Positions 9,873 to 21,045 of a stretch of 29,314 nt of DNA are shown in pieces. Under the pieces are notes generated by a model, which was not told where the DNA came from, ran no database searches, and saw nothing but the letters and a program-made list of their open reading frames with translations. The translations under genes were made by a program, and so were the position numbers. The number at the start of each line of letters is the position of its first letter. The first letter of the stretch is position 1. Origin of the DNA: a virus. The stretch is from IMG/VR virus record IMGVR_UViG_3300021962_000465, positions 1 through 29,314 of that record; one strand, 5' to 3'.

Positions 9873-11339
9873 ATGGCATACGCACCTGCTGATATTGAAG
9901 AAGAACAACTACGCCTCGAGCTACGGCTCAAGCTCCTTGAAGCGCACGAACGCGCAACCGGCAACTTCATCGACTTCTGCCAATATGTTTGGCCAGAAAT
10001 GTTGGTCGGCGATCATCACCGCATGATTGCTGAAAAGTTCGACCGAGTCATCTCTGGCGAATGCAAGCGCCTGATCGTGGCCATGCCCCCGCGCCACGGT
10101 AAGTCACAAATGGGCAGCTATCTTTTCCCTGCCTACCTGATGGGCAAGTTGCCCCAATCTAAACTGATCGTCGGCTCGCACACCGCGGAGCTCGCTCAAC
10201 GCTTCGGTCGCATGATCCGTAACTTGGTGGACGATGAGAGGTATCGAGAGATCTTCCCCAACATGCAACTCTCTGCTGACAGCAAGGCCGCCGGACGGTG
10301 GAACACGGCCCAAGGCGGGGAAGCCTTCTTCATTGGTAAGGGCGGCGCGATGACTGGCCGCGGTGGTGATGTGATCATTCTGGACGACATCTTGGACGAA
10401 CAGGATGCCAACTCTGAAACCGCGATGGAAGCAACTTGGGAGTGGTACGAGTCTGGCCCTCGTCAGCGTTTACAGCCGGGCGGCGCAATCATCCTGATCA
10501 ACACCCGTTGGAAAACAGATGATCCTGCCGGTCGCCTGTTGAAAATGCAATCCAACCTCAAGGCCGACCAGTGGGAGGTCTTGGAGTTCCCTGCCATCTT
10601 GCCCAGCGGCAAGCCCCTTTGGCCGGGCTACTGGAAGCTTGAGGAGTTGGAGAAGGTCAAGTTCTCCATCGGTCTGAAAAAGTGGAACGCCCAGTGGCAA
10701 CAGAACCCAACCAACGACGAAGGTGCGATCCTGAAACGCAACTGGTGGCGCAAGTGGAAGTTCGATGAGCCGCCATCATGCGAATACATTATCCAGTGCT
10801 ACGACACGGCGTACTCCAAAAAAGAGACGGCCGACTTCTCTGTCATCAGCACTTGGGGCGTGTTTTATCCTGATGCGGATTCGGGTGCAAACCTGATCCT
10901 GTTGAATGTGCGCAAAGGCCGTTGGGACTTCCCCGAGTTGAAGCGTGTCGCGAAGGACGAGTACCTTTACTGGAAACCAGATAATGTTTTGATTGAGGCC
11001 AAAGCAACGGGCACGCCGTTGCAGCAAGAACTTCGTCGTCTGTCGATCCCTGTCACGATGTACTCACCCGGTGGTCGCCGAACGGGGCAGGACAAGATTT
11101 CCCGCGCCAACGCTGTTGCTCCTATCTTGGAGTCGGGCATGGTTTGGTACCCTGAAAATCAGGAGTGGGCCGAGGAGATGGTTGAGGAATGCGCGGCCTT
11201 TCCCCTTGCTCCTCATGATGACCAAGTGGACACCGCGGTGATGGCATGGCATCGCTTCCGTCAGGGCAACTTCATTGCTTTGGCTGATGATGATTTGGAT
11301 GAGGGCGAACCGCAAACGGGACCTGTTGAGTATTATTGA
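9873..11339 (+). CDS. terL: Terminase large subunit
   Basis: This 488-residue protein is the ATP-driven packaging motor and nuclease. The ATPase part shows Walker A M71-P-P-R-H-G-K-S78 and Walker B V-I-I-L-D-D (167-172), plus a T-R-W (211-213) coupling-type motif. The RNase H-like nuclease shows C-Y-D311-T-A-Y, L-I-E375-A-K, and H-D449-D450-Q-V-D453. All catalytic acids are present, and the length is typical. It should assemble with the small subunit at 3678 and the portal at 14813. It is the first gene of the late region. Confidence 0.95.
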   Translation: MAYAPADIEEEQLRLELRLKLLEAHERATGNFIDFCQYVWPEMLVGDHHRMIAEKFDRVISGECKRLIVAMPPRHGKSQMGSYLFPAYLMGKLPQSKLIVGSHTAELAQRFGRMIRNLVDDERYREIFPNMQLSADSKAAGRWNTAQGGEAFFIGKGGAMTGRGGDVIILDDILDEQDANSETAMEATWEWYESGPRQRLQPGGAIILINTRWKTDDPAGRLLKMQSNLKADQWEVLEFPAILPSGKPLWPGYWKLEELEKVKFSIGLKKWNAQWQQNPTNDEGAILKRNWWRKWKFDEPPSCEYIIQCYDTAYSKKETADFSVISTWGVFYPDADSGANLILLNVRKGRWDFPELKRVAKDEYLYWKPDNVLIEAKATGTPLQQELRRLSIPVTMYSPGGRRTGQDKISRANAVAPILESGMVWYPENQEWAEEMVEECAAFPLAPHDDQVDTAVMAWHRFRQGNFIALADDDLDEGEPQTGPVEYY

Positions 11340-11389
11340 CAAGCTGCTTAAAATGGGGCAACTTACTCACTAGCCGAGGGCCACGGACC

Positions 11390-14300
11390 ATGCCTCAACC
11401 ACAAGACATCGAAGCCAAGATCAGGGCAGCGGCAGCTGCGAAGAATGTAGACCCTGATCTAGCGCTTCGAATTGCGCAGGCGGAGAGCTCTGGCCGTGCC
11501 GATGTTAAGAACCCGCGCTCCACGGCTCAGGGTTTGTTTCAGGTGATTGATGACACTTGGAAGAGGTATGGTGGCAAGCCCGGCATGAAGACGGATGTGG
11601 ATGAGAACATCCGTGTGGGCACAGACATTTTGGCTGACAACACGCAAAAACTTCGTCAGATGTTGGGCCGTGATCCTCAGGGGCATGAGGTTTATGCAGC
11701 GCATTTCTTTGGCCCGGGCACCGCGAAGTATGTTTTGCAGGCCGAACCCGACCGTCCGTTGGATCAGATCTTGTCCAAGGCGGTGATGAATGCAAATCCC
11801 ACGCTCAAAGGCAAGACAACGGGTCAATTTTTGCAGGAAATGCAAGGAAAAGTGGGCACCAAGCCCCAGTCGCAGCCTTCTGTTGCGTCAAAACCGGCGG
11901 CGGAGCCCACGGCGAGCGAAAAAATGATGACCGATGCTCTGAAAAGTGGCATGTCGGCGCAAAATTTGATCAAGGATGCCGGTCCGGGCTACAAAGCGGC
12001 CATGGCAATGATGTTTTTGGCGGATGACAAGCCCGAAACGCCCGATGAGGACATCTGGAAGGAGTCCGAACCTGAGGTTGTTGCTGAAGAAACGCTCCCA
12101 AGTCCCCTTGCAAGCTTGGATTTAAGCTACCAAAGCCCGTTTCCTGCGCCAAAACAGCCTGCAGTGCAGCAATTAGCCCATGGTGGCGTGGTGCACAGAG
12201 CCGACGGCACCCCTGAATCAGGGGAGGTATACCAAGAAAAGGGCATGAAGACCGAGTATTCGGATGCCCCCAAGCGTACAGCCAAGGAAATGCTGGTCTA
12301 CATGCAAGCGCAGAACCCAAGTGTGCGCATCGACAAGTTTCCGATGGACTCCAACACCATGGGGTATGTCAGCTCACGCGAGCCAGACATTGTCAACATC
12401 AATCCCAACCAATCTGCTGCCCGTGAAGAGCTGACCAAGCTGCATGAGCTGGAACACTCCATGGCTTTTCGCGCTGGCGACATCCTTGGCCGTCCAAATG
12501 TCCGTTCGCAGGACAACGCCTACCGCGCCTACCATTTGTTGAACAAAGATTGGACTCCAATTCGCCAGTTCGCTTTCAACATGGCCTCCAACCGCGACAA
12601 GTTGGAGAAGTTCTTTGGCCAGCCCATGGACAGCGGCTATCTGAACATGGACGCAAAGACTTTGGATAGCATCCGCAACCGCGGCGATGCGTTGCAAGGT
12701 CTGGCAGAAGAGCAGATGGCTTCTTTGTCGGCGCTGGAGCAGACCACTGGCAAGTTTTTGACGCAAGATCCAGAAATGCGCAAGCTGTTCCCATCCACCA
12801 AGATGATGGCGGTCTACGACGCACTGACAGGTCCCCGCCAGACTCGCATGGATGCACGCGATTTGCCTCCGCACACACCAGTGCCTTCGTACATGTACGA
12901 AACCAATCCCCTGATGCGTTTTATTCAAAAGCACACCACGGGAGAAAAGGAATACGGCATCCCGGTCAAGCGCGCTGATGGCAGCCCCATGGGCGGCGAA
13001 AATGTTGATCACTTGACTCCACAAGAGATCGAGCGCATGGCAGCCGCACAGAATGCAGCGTTCTTGACCCCCAGTTCTGGTCGTGGCCGCCAAGCAGGCA
13101 ATATCAGTCAGGCGTTGAACTCTGGCGAGGCCTATCCTGCCATCGCACGCGGTGTGATGGATGTTCCGTACAGTATCGCGGGCGGTCCTGTTGACCTTAT
13201 CACCATGGCAATGCGTCCCTTTGGTTACAAGGAAGAAAAACCAGTATTCGGTAGCGATTGGATCAAGGAAAAGATGACCAAATATGGCATCCGCCCCGGT
13301 GATGAGGCCACGCCAACGCTGCAAGGTTTCCGTACCATGGGGGAGCTCGGTGCATCGGCTGTGAACCCTGCATCCGTTGTACGAGGGACGATCAGCGCTG
13401 CAGAAAAAACCGGCGAAGCAGCCAAGATGTTGGCAAAGGACTTCCAGCAATACAACCGTCAGCTCACTGTGCCCGGCGCATCCTACGCTGTCAAACCTAC
13501 CGGTGGCGCATACTTAGCTCAGCACATGGACTCCAACATGGGCGACTATGTGAAGAATCTGGAAAAAGAAGCTGCAAGGCTTGCAGGTGATCGTCCAGAT
13601 GTCGCTGAATTCTTGCGCAACAAGGCACTGCCTTACCTGACCAAGAACTACGGCACCACCAATGATCCTATTCGCGATGCAATCTTGAAGGGGCAGATGG
13701 GCTTGTCTGGACATGATTCCAAGAATTTCCCAGAAGCACTGATTTTGGCCGCCAACAGAGGCGACAACATGGCGCGTGAGGCATTGGAGGCCACACATGA
13801 TGTGCGCACAGGACTTACTGGCCATGTCTATGATTTGAGTCCAAATGCGCGCTACATCCCCTCAGATATTCTCAGGCAACAAGAAGCCATGAAAATGCGG
13901 GAGCAGGGCTACACAGGCGCGACCACTCCTAAGATCTATTTCATGGGTGAAACTGAAGCCAAGTCGGCAGCAAGCGACCCCCGCATGGCGGACTACTATT
14001 TTGGGCAGCTCGGCGTGTCTCCCTCGTATAACGGAACGCCCGAAGGACTCAAATATTCGTTGGCAAACAAGCAGCCTGTTTATGACCTGAACCAGAACGA
14101 CTACTCAATGCTGGATTACATGATTCCAGAAAATGTGGTGGCTGCAATCTCCAGCGTGGATCCCAAAAAGCTCAAGAACTCTTCTTTTGCCGATGCGCTC
14201 ATCCAAGGCAACAACAACTTGTATTCCGGCCTGTACAAGCCATACATGAAGCAGGTGGACACATGGTATGACGCGGTGGACAAGGGCAACAAAGAAGTAG

Positions 14301-14803
14301 CCCTGCAGTATCCAAAGGAGGCCTCTCTCTTCGGCATGAGTGACCCTGTGTTGACAGATGCCAGAGGCTTTACTTGGCGCAAAGTTGTCGATCCCGATGC
14401 CACTCGAATCCAGAGTCAGCTGATGAATCACTCGATTGAAGGCTATGCCTATCCCAAGGCGTACAGACACAGCGGCTCGGAAAAGCTGGGGTCAAGCAAC
14501 GCGCGGGTGTCTTTGCTAAATGGCGATGTCGAGCTATATTCGCTGTACGACCCCAACGGCCACATCGTGTCGAACTTGGAATACTTGCCCAAGCAAAGGG
14601 AAATCTTTCAGGCCCGTGGCAATGGGGTATTAACAGGAAATGCGGAACCTGTAAACTACGCGGATCAGGTGTTTGACCTAGTTGAGCATTTAGATCCTAC
14701 GGAGATCTCGAACAGCGTGAAAACGCTGCTACGCGCAAACAACAAGTTTGCACAAGGGGGTGCAGTAGAGCGCGTCTCCGGTGACAATCGTCGCTACCTT
14801 TAA
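11390..14803 (+). CDS. Large virion protein with transglycosylase and HExxH motifs (1137 aa)
   Basis: Residues 20-125 form a lytic transglycosylase (SLT) domain: A-E32-S-S-G-R with the catalytic Glu, A-Q-G-L-F-Q-V at 47-53, and a downstream A-A-H-F-F-G-P-G. Such domains cut peptidoglycan during DNA entry. Residue 352 starts H-E-L-E-H, an HExxH zinc-protease signature in a helical setting. The rest is unrecognised and resembles multi-domain internal virion proteins. Short L-A-H-G-G-V-V-H-R (about 262) and final F-A-Q-G-G-A-V-E-R segments recall motifs in the 22711 protein. The frame is open from 11336, but the ATG at 11390 avoids overlapping the terminase. Probably an ejected internal protein. 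Confidence 0.8.
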   Translation: MPQPQDIEAKIRAAAAAKNVDPDLALRIAQAESSGRADVKNPRSTAQGLFQVIDDTWKRYGGKPGMKTDVDENIRVGTDILADNTQKLRQMLGRDPQGHEVYAAHFFGPGTAKYVLQAEPDRPLDQILSKAVMNANPTLKGKTTGQFLQEMQGKVGTKPQSQPSVASKPAAEPTASEKMMTDALKSGMSAQNLIKDAGPGYKAAMAMMFLADDKPETPDEDIWKESEPEVVAEETLPSPLASLDLSYQSPFPAPKQPAVQQLAHGGVVHRADGTPESGEVYQEKGMKTEYSDAPKRTAKEMLVYMQAQNPSVRIDKFPMDSNTMGYVSSREPDIVNINPNQSAAREELTKLHELEHSMAFRAGDILGRPNVRSQDNAYRAYHLLNKDWTPIRQFAFNMASNRDKLEKFFGQPMDSGYLNMDAKTLDSIRNRGDALQGLAEEQMASLSALEQTTGKFLTQDPEMRKLFPSTKMMAVYDALTGPRQTRMDARDLPPHTPVPSYMYETNPLMRFIQKHTTGEKEYGIPVKRADGSPMGGENVDHLTPQEIERMAAAQNAAFLTPSSGRGRQAGNISQALNSGEAYPAIARGVMDVPYSIAGGPVDLITMAMRPFGYKEEKPVFGSDWIKEKMTKYGIRPGDEATPTLQGFRTMGELGASAVNPASVVRGTISAAEKTGEAAKMLAKDFQQYNRQLTVPGASYAVKPTGGAYLAQHMDSNMGDYVKNLEKEAARLAGDRPDVAEFLRNKALPYLTKNYGTTNDPIRDAILKGQMGLSGHDSKNFPEALILAANRGDNMAREALEATHDVRTGLTGHVYDLSPNARYIPSDILRQQEAMKMREQGYTGATTPKIYFMGETEAKSAASDPRMADYYFGQLGVSPSYNGTPEGLKYSLANKQPVYDLNQNDYSMLDYMIPENVVAAISSVDPKKLKNSSFADALIQGNNNLYSGLYKPYMKQVDTWYDAVDKGNKEVALQYPKEASLFGMSDPVLTDARGFTWRKVVDPDATRIQSQLMNHSIEGYAYPKAYRHSGSEKLGSSNARVSLLNGDVELYSLYDPNGHIVSNLEYLPKQREIFQARGNGVLTGNAEPVNYADQVFDLVEHLDPTEISNSVKTLLRANNKFAQGGAVERVSGDNRRYL

Positions 14804-14812
14804 GGAATACAC

Positions 14813-17269
14813 ATGGCTATCGAACGGAACAACGACTTGCCCGCGGGCGATGCACTGATTGAATTCGACAAAATGGCAGAGATGCCTGATGTGGAGATCG
14901 AGATTGAAGAAGATGGCGGCGCTACCGTCAGCATCGGCGAAGAAGAAGACGGCAAAGTCGCGTTTGACAGCAACCTTGCTGAAGTGATCGACCCCTCGGT
15001 CTTGCAGAACATGTCGTCAGACTTGATGTCACTGTTCGAAGCAGACAAGTCGTCCCGCAAAGAATGGGAAGAGCAGTACAGCAAGGGCTTGAAGCTTCTT
15101 GGCTTCACCTTCGAAGAGCGCACCAAGCCATTCAAGGGCGCGTGCGGCGTGAGCCACCCACTCTTGACCGAGTCCATCGTTCAATTCCAATCTACAGCTC
15201 TGAAAGAGTTGATGCCTGCAGAGGGCCCCGTGCGCACGCAGGTGCTAGGCAAGGAAACGCGTGAGAAGTTGGCGCAAGCAGAGCGCGTGCGCAACTACAT
15301 GAACTACCAGATCACCACGGTGATGGAAGAGTACACGCCTGAGTTCGATCAGTTGCTGTTCTATGTTGGCTACGGCGGCTCGGCATTCAAGAAGATCTAC
15401 TTCGACGAGAACAAGGGCCGCATGGTCAGCCAGCTGGTGCTGCCAGACAACTTGTACATCCCTTACAACGGTTCAACGGTGATGAGCGAATGCGCTCGCA
15501 TCACGCACCGTGTGTTCATGTCGGTCAACGACTACAAGAAGGCCGTTGTCCGCGGTCAATACCTCGACACCGCATCTCCCACCACCATGGGCGAAGCCTC
15601 TCAGAGCGTGATCAAGAAGGAAATCGACAAGACCAATGGCGTGCAGCCCAACTCCACCGAAGAAGAAATGTCTTTGTTGGAGTTCCAAGTTGATTTGGAC
15701 TTGGAAGGTTTTGAGCACAAGGATGAAGACGGCGAAGCCACAGGCATTCGCTTGCCCTACATCGTCACCATCGATGAGATCACCAACGATGTGGTTGGCG
15801 TGCGCCGTAACTGGAAAGAGGGCGATCCGCTCTACGCTCGCAAGCAGTACTACATCCACTACTTGCTCGTCCAAGGTCCCGGCGCATACGGCCTTGGCTT
15901 CTTGCACCTGATCGGGGGCTTGACCAAGACTTCGACAGCCGCTTTGCAGCAGTTGATCGACTCGGGCACCCTGTCCAACCTGCCAGCAGGTTTCAAGGCC
16001 AAGGGCGCTCGTATCATGAACGACGATGTGCCTCTGAGCCCCGGCGAGTGGCGCGACATCGATGTGGGCGGCGCAGACCTGCAAGCCTCAATCTTGCCTC
16101 TGCCTTACAAAGAGCCCAGCCAAACCTTGTTTGCGCTCATGGGCGCGTGCGTGGACTCTGGTCGCCGCTTGGCCAGCATCACCGACATGCAAGTTGGTGA
16201 CAGCAACCAAAACGCTGCCGTGGGCACCACGATTGCTTTGCTCGAAAAGGGCAGCGCGGTCATGTCTTCGATCCACAAGCGCATGCACTACAGCCAGAAG
16301 CTGGAGTTTGCGTTGTTGGCCAAGGGCTTTGGCGAATACCTACCTGACCACTACCCTTACGATGTGCCCGGCGAGAGCCGCTACATCAAGAAGCGTGACT
16401 TCGACAATCGCGTTGATGTTCTCCCCGTCTCTGACCCCAACATCTTCTCTGTGGCTCAGCGCATCACCATGGCGCAGACCCAGCTACAGCTCGCTCAGAG
16501 CGCACCGCAGATGCACAACATGTACGAGGCATACCGCCGCATGTATGAGGCGATTGGCGTGCGTGATATCGACGATTTGTTGAATGGCTCGAATGTGGAC
16601 AAGCCAAAGGACCCTGCAAGCGAGAACGCACAGGTCTTGGACGGCGTGGCCTTGAAGGCATTTGCTGGCCAACAGCACGATGCGCACATCATGGCGCACA
16701 TCATGATGGGCTTGTCGCCCATGGTGCAGGCAATGCCCAATGTGGCCGTCAACTTGCAAAAACACATCATGGAGCACATCAAGCTCAAGGCCGAGGAAGA
16801 GGTCGAAGCCGAGTTGTTCAAGGCCTATGGTGCCGATCCACAGGGCTTGGTGTCTGCGTTGCAGCGCGAGGCCTTGGTGGCGATGAAGACCGCCCAGTTC
16901 TTCCAAGAAGTCAAGCAGTTGCAGACGCAAATGCAAGGAAACCAAGAAGATCCTTTGGTGGCATTGAAGAAACAAGAATTGGACCAGAGCGCACAGCGCG
17001 ATCAGGCCAAGCTGCAGCTCGACCAAGCGCACTTGACTTTGGATCAACAGCGCGAGCAAGCCGATCAGGCCGAAGCCGCTGCCAAACTGCAATTAGACCG
17101 CGAGAAGCTCGAAGCACAACACGGTGTGCAGCACCGCCAAATCGACCAAAAAGGGGTACAACATGCCAACCAACTCACCCAGCAAGCGATCCAAAACGCC
17201 CAGCAAGTCGCGCAGCAAAATGCTGACCGGATCGCCCAAGCGCAGCAAGCCAGCCAGTACCAACCCTGA
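14813..17269 (+). CDS. Portal protein
   Basis: This 818-residue protein should form the dodecameric ring at the packaging vertex. Its central region (V-L-P-D-N-L-Y-I-P-Y near residue 210; a P-x-K-x-P-S-Q-T-L-F and I-T-D-M-Q-V-G-D-S-N-Q-N-A-A-V-G-T stretch near 440-480) is the pattern I know from portals of P22-like and related short-tailed phages. The acidic N-terminus (1-50) is followed by the folded core, and residues about 700-818 form a Gln/Ala-rich coiled coil, as in the barrel of long portals. AAGGA precedes the start. A small gene overlaps its 3' end. Confidence 0.85.
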   Translation: MAIERNNDLPAGDALIEFDKMAEMPDVEIEIEEDGGATVSIGEEEDGKVAFDSNLAEVIDPSVLQNMSSDLMSLFEADKSSRKEWEEQYSKGLKLLGFTFEERTKPFKGACGVSHPLLTESIVQFQSTALKELMPAEGPVRTQVLGKETREKLAQAERVRNYMNYQITTVMEEYTPEFDQLLFYVGYGGSAFKKIYFDENKGRMVSQLVLPDNLYIPYNGSTVMSECARITHRVFMSVNDYKKAVVRGQYLDTASPTTMGEASQSVIKKEIDKTNGVQPNSTEEEMSLLEFQVDLDLEGFEHKDEDGEATGIRLPYIVTIDEITNDVVGVRRNWKEGDPLYARKQYYIHYLLVQGPGAYGLGFLHLIGGLTKTSTAALQQLIDSGTLSNLPAGFKAKGARIMNDDVPLSPGEWRDIDVGGADLQASILPLPYKEPSQTLFALMGACVDSGRRLASITDMQVGDSNQNAAVGTTIALLEKGSAVMSSIHKRMHYSQKLEFALLAKGFGEYLPDHYPYDVPGESRYIKKRDFDNRVDVLPVSDPNIFSVAQRITMAQTQLQLAQSAPQMHNMYEAYRRMYEAIGVRDIDDLLNGSNVDKPKDPASENAQVLDGVALKAFAGQQHDAHIMAHIMMGLSPMVQAMPNVAVNLQKHIMEHIKLKAEEEVEAELFKAYGADPQGLVSALQREALVAMKTAQFFQEVKQLQTQMQGNQEDPLVALKKQELDQSAQRDQAKLQLDQAHLTLDQQREQADQAEAAAKLQLDREKLEAQHGVQHRQIDQKGVQHANQLTQQAIQNAQQVAQQNADRIAQAQQASQYQP

Positions 17270-17389: not shown

Positions 17390-17590
17390 ATGCTTGAGTT
17401 TGTTGAAAATCTGCACCGTTCCATCCGTACTCTTGAGCGCGAGACGCAAGACATCGTGGTGGCCGGGAAAGTGCGGGATATGGAGCAGTACAAGTTCCTG
17501 ATGGGCCGTCTTGAGGGTTACCGATTTGTGAAGGAGGCCATCCAAAGCCTCTTGAGCAATAACCCCGACTTACAAGAGGACCAACTATGA
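17390..17590 (+). CDS. Small helical protein before the co-chaperonin (66 aa)
   Basis: This protein is mostly helix: L-E-F-V-E-N-L-H-R-S-I-R-T-L-E-R-E-T, then M-E-Q-Y-K-F-L-M-G-R-L-E-G-Y-R-F-V-K-E-A-I-Q. The last pattern (Q-Y-x-x-L-x-G-x-x-x-G-x) is common in small proteins next to phage portals and scaffolds, whose role is unknown. GGAG is seven bases upstream of the ATG at 17390. It overlaps the co-chaperonin by ATGA, so the two are coupled. Confidence 0.7.
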   Translation: MLEFVENLHRSIRTLERETQDIVVAGKVRDMEQYKFLMGRLEGYRFVKEAIQSLLSNNPDLQEDQL

Positions 17591-18060
17591 CTGAACTGAC
17601 CCCGTTAGAGAAAAAATGGGCGGAAGAGCAAGCCGCTGCGGAAAAAGAAGCCGCAGACAAGGCAGCCGCCGAAGCCATTGCCACTGCTGAGGCCCGCAAA
17701 GAGCATCAGGAGCAGGTGTCTAGCATCAAAGAACACTTGCCCAACGCCACAGGCTGGCGCGTGATTGTTCTGCCCTACCGCGGTGCCCGAAAGACCAAGG
17801 GCGGTATCGAATTAGCCAATGAGACTCTAGAACGCCAACAGCTGACTACGACCTGCGCGTATGTTCTGTCTGTCGGCCCGCTCGCCTACAAAGACGAAGC
17901 GAAGTTCCCCACCGGTGCGTGGTGCAAAGAGGGCGATTGGATCATCTTTGGTCGCTACGCCGGTGCGCGTATGGCCATTGACGGCGGCGAGATTCGCATC
18001 TTGAACGATGACGAAGTCTTGGCGACGATTAAAGACCCCGAAGACATTCTGCATATGTGA
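17587..18060 (+). CDS. GroES-like co-chaperonin with coiled-coil extension (157 aa)
   Basis: Residues about 56-149 align with Cpn10/GroES: G-W-R-V-I-V-L opens the barrel; K-T-K-G-G-I-E-L (69-76) sits where the mobile loop with its GroEL-contacting hydrophobic tripeptide lies; A-Y-V-L-S-V-G corresponds to the G-x-V-x-A-V-G strand; E-G-D-W-I-I-F to V-G-D-x-V-I-F; and I-L-N-D-D-E-V-L-A-T-I to the closing helix-strand. Residues 6-50 are an extra Ala/Glu/Lys-rich coiled coil absent from bacterial GroES. It probably works with host GroEL to fold the capsid protein, as gp31 does in T4. Its place beside scaffold and capsid fits. Confidence 0.85.
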   Translation: MTELTPLEKKWAEEQAAAEKEAADKAAAEAIATAEARKEHQEQVSSIKEHLPNATGWRVIVLPYRGARKTKGGIELANETLERQQLTTTCAYVLSVGPLAYKDEAKFPTGAWCKEGDWIIFGRYAGARMAIDGGEIRILNDDEVLATIKDPEDILHM

Positions 18061-18068
18061 GGTAAGCA

Positions 18069-19034
18069 ATGGCAACTCTAATGAACGACGAACAGCTGGA
18101 GTTTGACTTGGGGGCCGATGAAAAGGCCACTGATGTCGCAATTCAAGGTGACCAAAACGAGGACAAAAGCGGCGACACAGCTGCTGCCCCCGCCGCGGAC
18201 GACCAACAGCAAAACAACCAATCGGATACCCGCAACGAGCTGGATTCGGTCAACGACGCAGTGCAAAAACGCATTGCCAAATTGACCGCACGCATGCGCG
18301 AAGCGGAACGCCGTGAACAAGCAGCCTTGGAATACGCCAAGGGCCTGCAAAACCAAACACAGACCCTGCAGCAGAAGTTGGTTCAGACCGACTACAGCCG
18401 CTTGACTGAGGCGAAAGCCCGTTTGGATACCCAACAAACTGCATTGCGCCAGATCATCATGAAGGCTCGCGAAGAGAACGACATGAATACTGAGCTGGAA
18501 GCACAAGAGCGCTTGGCAGCCCTTGTTCAAGAGCAGCGCCAAGTGGCCGGTTGGTTGCAAGACCAGCCCCAGCCAAATCAGCAGCAAGTGCAGCAGCAAC
18601 ATGCTCCCCAACAACAGCAGTACCAGCAGCCTGCTCAACAGCAGCAGCCACAACAGCAGCCGCAACAGCCTCGTCCGAGTGCAAAAGCTGAAGACTGGGC
18701 CGCGCGCAACGAGTGGTATGGCAAGAACCGTATGCTGACTTATGGTGCTTGGGGCATCCATCAGACACTGGTTGAGGAAGAGGGGGTTGAACCTGATTCC
18801 GAAGAGTACTATACTGAACTAGATCGTCGTCTTCGCGAGGAGTTTCCAAAGCACTTCGCTGACACGCAACAACAATCCAGACAACAGCGTTCCGCGCCTG
18901 CTGTTGCCCCTGCCTCCCGTAGTTCGGGAATCAATAGTGCGCGCCGTACTGTCCGGCTTTCGCCGAGTCAGGTTGCTATTGCAAAAAAACTGGGTGTTCC
19001 TCTCGAGGAATATGCCAAGTATGTGAAGGAGTAA
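18069..19034 (+). CDS. Scaffolding protein
   Basis: This 321-residue protein has a scaffold layout: an acidic N-terminus (1-60), coiled-coil helix (about 62-165), a low-complexity Gln-rich linker (166-200), a conserved-looking W-A-A-R-N-E-W-Y...E-E-Y-Y-T-E-L-D block (210-260), and a basic helical C-terminus (290-321), where scaffolds normally bind the coat. GAGG precedes the ATG at 18069; a second ATG at 18081 is less well placed. It lies two genes upstream of the decoration protein and directs procapsid assembly before leaving the head. Confidence 0.75.
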   Translation: MATLMNDEQLEFDLGADEKATDVAIQGDQNEDKSGDTAAAPAADDQQQNNQSDTRNELDSVNDAVQKRIAKLTARMREAERREQAALEYAKGLQNQTQTLQQKLVQTDYSRLTEAKARLDTQQTALRQIIMKAREENDMNTELEAQERLAALVQEQRQVAGWLQDQPQPNQQQVQQQHAPQQQQYQQPAQQQQPQQQPQQPRPSAKAEDWAARNEWYGKNRMLTYGAWGIHQTLVEEEGVEPDSEEYYTELDRRLREEFPKHFADTQQQSRQQRSAPAVAPASRSSGINSARRTVRLSPSQVAIAKKLGVPLEEYAKYVKE

Positions 19035-19038
19035 GAAC

Positions 19039-19518
19039 ATGAGCAAAGAAATCACAATCGACCGTGCAACCCGCAGCGCGAGCACTCGTGCTAAGGAAGA
19101 GCGTCGCAAGCCATGGGCTCCACCTTCGCGTCTTGACGCACCTCCCGCCCCTGAAGGATTCGAACACCGTTGGATTCGTGCAGAAGTCAACGGCTACGAA
19201 GACAAGAAGAATGTGTATTCGAAGCTGCGCGAAGGTTATGAACTCGTGCGCATCGATGAGCTCCCAGAGGAGTATCAGCACTTGTTGCCAACCGTTGAGG
19301 ACGGCAAACACGCTGGTGTTGTTTCTGTTGGTGGTCTCTTGCTTGCAAGGATCCCCAAAGAGACCCTCAAGGAGCGTGCAGATTACTTCCGCCAGAAGGC
19401 TCGGGATCAGTTACAAGCGGTAGACAACGAGATGATGCGTGAGAACGCCCACTCGTCCATGCGAATCCAATCTCCAGAACGGAGTTCGCGCACAACTTTC
19501 CGTCAGCCGCAAGGTTGA
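19039..19518 (+). CDS. Conserved structural-region protein (159 aa)
   Basis: The pattern R-K-P-W-A-P-P-S-R-L-D-A-P-P-A-P-E-G-F-E-H-R-W-I-R (23-47 in pieces), then K-L-R-E-G-Y-E-L-V-R and G-G-L-L-L-A-R-I-P, belongs to a family I know between scaffold and capsid in many aquatic short-tailed phages. It has a basic, flexible N-terminus and a charged helical C-terminus. The role is unknown; head assembly is likely from context. AAGGAG precedes the start. Confidence 0.7.
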   Translation: MSKEITIDRATRSASTRAKEERRKPWAPPSRLDAPPAPEGFEHRWIRAEVNGYEDKKNVYSKLREGYELVRIDELPEEYQHLLPTVEDGKHAGVVSVGGLLLARIPKETLKERADYFRQKARDQLQAVDNEMMRENAHSSMRIQSPERSSRTTFRQPQG

Positions 19519-19543: not shown

Positions 19544-20131
19544 ATGGCAAATGTAAACAAGCCTTTTGGTCTGCGCCCTTTGGGCAACCTGTCTGCTACT
19601 GGTGCACAGAAGCAGTACGGTTACCAAATTGCGGATAACCAAGCTGGCGCAATCTACCAAGGTGACTTGGTTGTCGTCTATGACGGCTACATCATCAAGT
19701 ATGACGCATCCACTCATGCCGCCCCAACAGGCGTGTTCAATGGTTGCCAATACAACGACCCCACCCGTGCTAACAAGCCCACATGGAAGAACTACTACCC
19801 CGGTAGCATCAACATCACTACAGGCATCATTGCTTGCGAAGTGAACGATGATCCCGCTCAGTTGTTCGTCGTGCAGGCTGATGGCTCTGTGTCTCAAGCC
19901 AACATTGGCAAGAACGCTGATCCAACTGCATCTACCACTGGCAGCACCACTTCTGGCGTTTCTGCAGGTTCTCTGGACTCTGCTTCTATCGCTAAGACAG
20001 CAGCGTTGACCTTCAAAATCGTTGGTTTGTACGAAGCACCGGGCAATGACTTCGGTAACTACGCACAAGTCGTTGTAAAACTCAATCAACACCAATACGG
20101 CAGTGTTGGCGTTGCAGCTGATGGAGCTTAA
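19544..20131 (+). CDS. Capsid decoration or head-stabilising protein (195 aa)
   Basis: The opening N-K-P-F-G-L-R-P-L-G, the I-Y-Q-G-D-L-V segment, G-V-F-N-G-C-Q-Y-N-D and the D-D-P-A-Q-L-F-V-V-Q-A-D-G stretch are typical of a beta-rich protein placed directly before the major capsid protein in podovirus-like genomes. It is thought to decorate or stabilise the head. Thr/Ser/Gly-rich residues 126-150 look like an exposed loop. AGGAG precedes the start. The exact role is inferred from neighbours. Confidence 0.65.
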   Translation: MANVNKPFGLRPLGNLSATGAQKQYGYQIADNQAGAIYQGDLVVVYDGYIIKYDASTHAAPTGVFNGCQYNDPTRANKPTWKNYYPGSINITTGIIACEVNDDPAQLFVVQADGSVSQANIGKNADPTASTTGSTTSGVSAGSLDSASIAKTAALTFKIVGLYEAPGNDFGNYAQVVVKLNQHQYGSVGVAADGA

Positions 20132-20133
20132 TC

Positions 20134-21045
20134 ATGGCTATTACCCGTTCCCAACTTGTTAAAGAGCTGGAGCCCGGCCTGAACGCTTTGTTCGGCTTGG
20201 AGTACAAGCGCTACGAAAACGAGCACGAAGAAATCTTTGCTATCGAGACTTCTGACCGTGCATTCGAAGAAGAAGTTATGTTGACCGGCTTCAGCACCGC
20301 TCCAGTGAAAACTGAAGGCGCTGGTGTGGCATATGACGACGCAATCGAATCGTACACAGCTCGCTACACACACGAAACCATTGCTATGGCATTCGCGTTG
20401 ACCGAAGAAGCCGTTGAGGACAACCTCTACGACCGCTTGTCAGCTCGCTACACCAAGGCTTTGGCTCGTTCTATGGCCAACACCAAGCAAGTCAAAGGCG
20501 CTTCTGTGTTGAACAATGCTTTCACTGGCGGCAACTATGCTGGCGGCGACGGCGTTGCTCTCTGCTCGGACGCTCACCCCACTGCTTTGGGCCCCAACTT
20601 CAGTAACACTCCTGCAGTGCCTGCTGACTTGAACGAGACTTCTCTCGAACAAGCTATCATCGACATTGCAGCGTTTACTGACGAACGCGGCTTGCGCGTG
20701 GCCTTGACTGGTCGCAAGATGATCGTTCCTAAGGAACTGCAGTTCACTGCAGAGCGCCTGATGAAGTCAACTTTGCGCACCGCTACAGCTGATAACGACA
20801 TCAACGCTATCAAGTCTATGGGTTTGATCCCTGAAGGCTACGCTGTCAACCACTTCTTGACTGACACCAACGCATGGTTCATCATCACTGATGCTCCTAA
20901 CGGTCTCAAGATGTTCGAGCGTTCACCTATCAAAACCGCCTTCGAAGGCGATTTCGACACAGGTAATGTGCGCTACAAGGCCCGTGAGCGTTACAGCTTC
21001 GGCTGGTCTGACCCACGCGGTATCTACGGTTCTCCCGGCGCGTAA
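20134..21045 (+). CDS. Major capsid protein
   Basis: This 303-residue protein has HK97-fold coat character. Residues 88-125 (A-L-T-E-E-A-V-E-D-N-L-Y-D-R-L-S followed by a long helix with A-L-A-R-S-M-A-N-T-K) and 126-150 (L-N-N-A-F...G-G-D-G-V-A-L-C-S-D-A-H-P) are the spine-helix region of Mu gpT-like coat proteins. The N-terminal E-L-E-P-G-L-N-A-L-F-G is also typical. Its codon choice is uniform and suited to high expression, and a strong terminator follows. GGAG precedes the start. Confidence 0.9.
   Translation: MAITRSQLVKELEPGLNALFGLEYKRYENEHEEIFAIETSDRAFEEEVMLTGFSTAPVKTEGAGVAYDDAIESYTARYTHETIAMAFALTEEAVEDNLYDRLSARYTKALARSMANTKQVKGASVLNNAFTGGNYAGGDGVALCSDAHPTALGPNFSNTPAVPADLNETSLEQAIIDIAAFTDERGLRVALTGRKMIVPKELQFTAERLMKSTLRTATADNDINAIKSMGLIPEGYAVNHFLTDTNAWFIITDAPNGLKMFERSPIKTAFEGDFDTGNVRYKARERYSFGWSDPRGIYGSPGA

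Follow-up and report, generated by a model that had tools for sequence, protein, structure and literature searches.

A phage GroES with a conserved N-terminal tail motif is inherited with one capsid lineage

Introduction

In T4, the phage-encoded co-chaperonin gp31 acts together with host GroEL in folding the capsid protein gp23, a step for which gp31 is essential (PMC6318259). GroES is also a core gene of HTVC023P-type pelagiphages, and the presence of a phage GroES gene beside head genes has already been published (PMC9599517); a GroES has likewise been shown in CRP-901-type phages (PMC10149686). Only for a few phages, T4 among them, is the client of the co-chaperonin established.

Here we analyze a GroES gene carried on a viral record of 29,314 nucleotides (IMG/VR IMGVR_UViG_3300021962_000465; the whole stretch is hereafter called the window). 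HTVC023P-type GroES proteins, including those of HTVC027P and HTVC023P, belong to the same family (51–59% identity over the matched part) and share with the window the gene order and a long N-terminal extension, which in HTVC027P-type proteins mostly bears the same motif (ALEEKY), whereas HTVC023P itself has only a partial one (KLTDF). Their linker between motif and barrel is shorter (25–29 residues against 43 in the window) and rich in Lys and Glu. Closer still, the GroES of DSL-LC04 is 67% identical to the window protein over the matched part, lies in the same module and carries the motif TALEEKW.

Results

The gene occupies positions 17587–18060 of the plus strand, begins with an ATG preceded by a Shine-Dalgarno-like AGAGGA, and encodes a protein of 157 amino acids. 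This protein matched Pfam Cpn10 (PF00166; 37.6 bits against a cut-off of 21.1) and phrog_3188, 'co-chaperonin GroES' (E = 4e-18), and GroES chains in the PDB aligned to its residues 55–148 with E-values down to 5e-7. NCBIfam GroES models also matched, all below their curated cut-offs, indicating that the window protein is a divergent member of the family. An AlphaFold2 model of the single chain, built on 84 sequences (mean pLDDT 83.5), consists of a beta-barrel at residues 58–148 and one helix at residues 6–48. The barrel region (residues 51–149; 17737–18033, plus strand) aligned with bacterial GroES 8wuc_a over 91 residues in VIA-align (Z 11.3, rmsd 2.8). A sequence-only reading of this DNA had called the product Cpn10/GroES-like and had named a structure prediction lacking a GroES barrel as grounds for abandoning that assignment; the family matches and the predicted barrel both bear the assignment out.

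Structural alignment of the model with T4 gp31 gave Z 7.8–8.2, and the best viral fold matches were GroES proteins of 'uncultured virus'. In sequence and fold, the window protein is nearer to bacterial GroES than to gp31, and it aligns with GroES across the roof hairpin, a region that is apparently present here but absent from gp31. Bacterial GroES (Cpn10) has the barrel and mobile loop in common with the window protein, at about 30% identity, but is about 97 amino acids long and has no N-terminal extension, whereas the window gene lies in a phage head block without groEL; no Cpn60/GroEL was found in the 29-kb record, itself a fragment. The mobile loop, located by alignment to GroES (17782–17850, plus strand), carries an intact G72-G73-I74-E75-L76. 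The I-E-L triplet that had been picked out earlier as a mobile-loop feature (I74–L76, 17806–17814) does fall at the mobile-loop position, directly after G-G, and a hydrophobic-x-hydrophobic triplet (IEL, IVL, LYL, ILL or similar) was present in nearly all relatives that could be read by a simple pattern. By homology, the barrel would form a seven-fold lid, with the G-G-I-E-L loop binding GroEL.

Relatives of the window protein are encoded on more than 580 viral contig stretches. Only two contigs matched in the bacterial genome set, both in metagenome-assembled bins; these contigs (L332 and L333), binned as Armatimonadetes and Gammaproteobacteria, carry this GroES and are probably phage contigs inside metagenome bins. 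We also considered whether GroES was acquired as a host-like auxiliary gene, which is unlikely given its fixed place in the head block and its occurrence on just these two contigs of the bacterial set.

The N-terminal extension of about 50 residues has two parts. Residues 5–12 (TPLEKKWA; 17599–17622, plus strand) form a conserved motif, which we followed in relatives as L-x-x-[KR]-[WYF]. This pattern occurs in the extension of 76/76 long relatives (75 with W or Y, one with F), a set drawn from the window, DSL-LC04 and HTVC027P types in which all members are less than 90% identical to one another. Shuffled extensions carry it at 0.8–3.4%, a comparison that serves as a guide and not as a p-value since the sequences share kinship. 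The motif and the linker that follows it are predicted to form a single Ala/Glu-rich helix (residues 6–48; 17602–17730, plus strand; pLDDT about 71–81). The distance from motif to barrel varies by type: most window-type proteins have 43 or 39 residues in between, most of the DSL-LC04 type have 37 or 36, and most of the HTVC027P type have 25 or 29. Rough pN/pS values, pS being high, were 0.17 for the motif codons, 0.53 for the linker and 0.13 for the barrel.

The extension had previously been read as a coiled coil of about 50 residues that might control oligomerization or bind the scaffold, and such a tail could pair with a coiled coil in the scaffold. One long predicted helix is what such a structure would call for, but a heptad hydrophobic pattern was absent from the extensions of all 13 sequences tested: the best a/d occupancy in the window extension was 0.23, against a mean of 0.24 in shuffles and 0.80 for the GCN4 yardstick. 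The linker, moreover, differs in length by 4 to 18 residues and contains Pro and Gly in DSL-LC04-type relatives. We therefore consider this reading very improbable, and the proposed role in oligomer control finds no support in a linker that varies in both length and composition. Given the missing heptad pattern and the variable linker, the extension is a short conserved motif on a fast-changing, mostly helical linker, and not a recognizable coiled coil. Such an arrangement fits a tail that binds a phage assembly partner, which is possible, better than a coiled coil would.

Alternatively, the tail could be a spacer for solubility or localization, or could make weak contacts with GroEL or substrate, leaving an ordinary phage GroES that has no dedicated phage partner. 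An Ala/Glu-rich linker that is free to change is what a spacer would predict, and related GroES proteins do exist that have no tail. These shorter relatives, of the CRP-902, MinM2, Caulobacter and Alcaligenes types and from spring-water phages, retain GroES without the motif, indicating that the tail is dispensable for basic function. A spacer does not, however, account for a motif that is nearly as constrained as the barrel and is conserved in place in every one of the long relatives, and we regard this explanation as somewhat unlikely.

Separately, the linker of DSL-LC04-type GroES (for example L082, 4387–4839) differs from that of the window in carrying, besides its Pro and Gly, a second short conserved block, L-x-D-A-Y.

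Directly upstream of GroES lies a small gene, here called S (17390–17590, plus strand; 66 amino acids), whose end overlaps the GroES start in an ATGA. The sequence-only reading had described it as a coupled gene that may work with GroES. Gene S precedes GroES in 74/74 close relatives with enough upstream DNA, but the ATGA overlap is kept in just 14 of these 74, so that the adjacency, and not the overlap, is what is conserved. A simple pattern caught S at 288/302 loci, covering all groups. Of the 14 loci missed, 12 encode what inspection by eye plainly shows to be S; of the remaining two, one holds a weak candidate and the other (QDWS535) a small frame that takes the place of S but is dissimilar to it; a few of the pattern's picks were wrong-frame ORFs (for example in L049 and L332), the true S of L049 having been found in the survey of close relatives. 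Among relatives of the window, DSL-LC04, HTVC027P and CRP-902 types, S almost always adjoins GroES, and it seems to be a partner that constantly accompanies that gene. It is under purifying selection (pN/pS 0.35), which, together with its presence in all close relatives and at nearly all of the 302 loci, rules out a spurious ORF.

The S protein is predicted to be a two-helix hairpin (AlphaFold2, pLDDT 91). Its only known family is phrog_32603, of unknown function, which was matched by 54/56 S members; Pfam matches were inconsistent between members, and fold matches in the PDB all had E > 2 and were generic helical hairpins, one of them a type III secretion chaperone. The DSL-LC04 copy of S is annotated 'type III secretion system', a label that probably reflects the same chance resemblance. 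In HTVC023P-type phages, S overlaps the start of GroES far more extensively than by the window's ATGA: at HTVC027P-type loci (for example L083, 4188–4421) the overlap is out of frame and spans about 41–68 bases, which makes the N-terminal residues of that GroES dual-coded.

GroES and S are embedded in a block of head genes, all on the plus strand. Upstream is the portal gene (14813–17269; phrog_1216, E = 1e-38). Downstream are a gene for a scaffold-like protein of 321 amino acids (18069–19034; phrog_28737, unknown function), two conserved head-module genes of 159 and 195 amino acids that hold the same place in relatives (19039–19518, phrog_36003; 19544–20131, phrog_37556; both of unknown function), and the gene for the major capsid protein of 303 amino acids (20134–21045; Pfam Phage_capsid_4, 52.5 bits; phrog_371, major head protein). 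Scaffold and capsid had both been proposed as neighbors. The capsid assignment stands, with a portal gene besides, and the product of 18069–19034 may be the scaffold, as its position and Q-rich, helical-looking composition suggest. Annotated relatives have in common the order portal, S, GroES, scaffold-like protein, a protein of about 155 amino acids, one of about 190 and capsid, some with extra genes; this order was found in phages of SAR11, Roseobacter, Caulobacter, cyanobacteria and others.

All 18 phage records whose capsid protein is at least 40% identical to that of the window (18/18) carry GroES. We also fetched loci by two divergent capsid proteins, thereby avoiding choice by GroES, and required at least 3.8 kb of upstream DNA. 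Every one of these loci (32/32 and 51/51, together 83/83) had GroES 2.2–4 kb upstream of the capsid gene, and 0/5 loci of a remote capsid outgroup (about 29% identity) had it within the 6 kb of upstream DNA searched. GroES is thus locked to one capsid lineage. This linkage is one of co-inheritance and does not single out the client among the proteins linked. An S-like match preceded GroES in 50/52 capsid-anchored loci of one capsid group but in only 6/38 of the second group, whose loci have dissimilar small ORFs of about the same size in its place.

A different possibility is a role in general host takeover, in which the phage co-chaperonin would act on many proteins in place of host GroES instead of serving the capsid. 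There is precedent in gp31, which can stand in for GroES in the host (PMC6318259), but a broad role of this kind is hard to reconcile with a gene that keeps a fixed position inside the block of late head genes and is strictly tied to a single capsid lineage, and we consider it improbable.

Discussion

We think it probable that the window GroES acts as a lid of host GroEL in the manner of gp31, that it specifically serves the phage's own head proteins, and that its motif-tipped tail tethers a phage assembly partner. By analogy with T4, the phage protein would cap host GroEL and, judging from homology and linkage, would fold phage head proteins; the likeliest of these is the major capsid protein (33 kDa), which we propose as its main client. 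Seven tails, each a variable helical linker ending in the motif T/K-A-L-E-x-K-W/Y, would ring the lid and hold a phage partner near the folding chamber; candidate partners are the scaffold-like protein, the product of gene S and the capsid protein. Newly folded capsid protein could then be passed on to assembly via the partner held by the tail.

The likeness to gp31 lies in a phage-encoded lid of GroES fold and, as we propose for the window protein, in the use of host GroEL and in a capsid client. Unlike gp31, the window protein has an N-terminal tail, and the capsid protein of its phage is small. Because that protein, at 303 amino acids and about 33 kDa, should fit under host GroES, the need for a larger cage invoked for gp31 and gp23 does not carry over to this phage; a reasonable explanation for keeping a private lid would be that its tail motif tethers it to the assembly machinery. 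In a bolder version, which we hold to be rather unlikely, the motif would be a docking signal linking the phage-supplied GroEL lid to the growing prohead, with S as a co-factor and S-GroES as an obligate, capsid-type-specific cassette across very different hosts.

In the open-access papers that we read, we found no mention of the tail motif, of the constant neighbor S or of a capsid lineage to which GroES is strictly tied across hosts, which is not proof of novelty. Since the co-chaperonin accompanies a single capsid lineage throughout abundant aquatic phages, the question of its client can be tested in cultured members, namely HTVC027P, CRP-901/902 and Caulobacter phage RW, and the conserved tail motif offers a specific handle for seeking the partner of GroES.

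Two further observations concern the surroundings of such genes. Just before the portal gene, the window contains a very long ORF (11336–14803; 1155 codons), and its N-terminal sequence (AESSGRADVKNPRSTAQGLFQ) resembles that of a lytic transglycosylase. A virus assigned to Methanomicrobiales (BK063670; L336, 1027–1383), with a capsid protein of 25% identity, carries a 10 kDa chaperonin gene (groS) upstream of its terminase gene.
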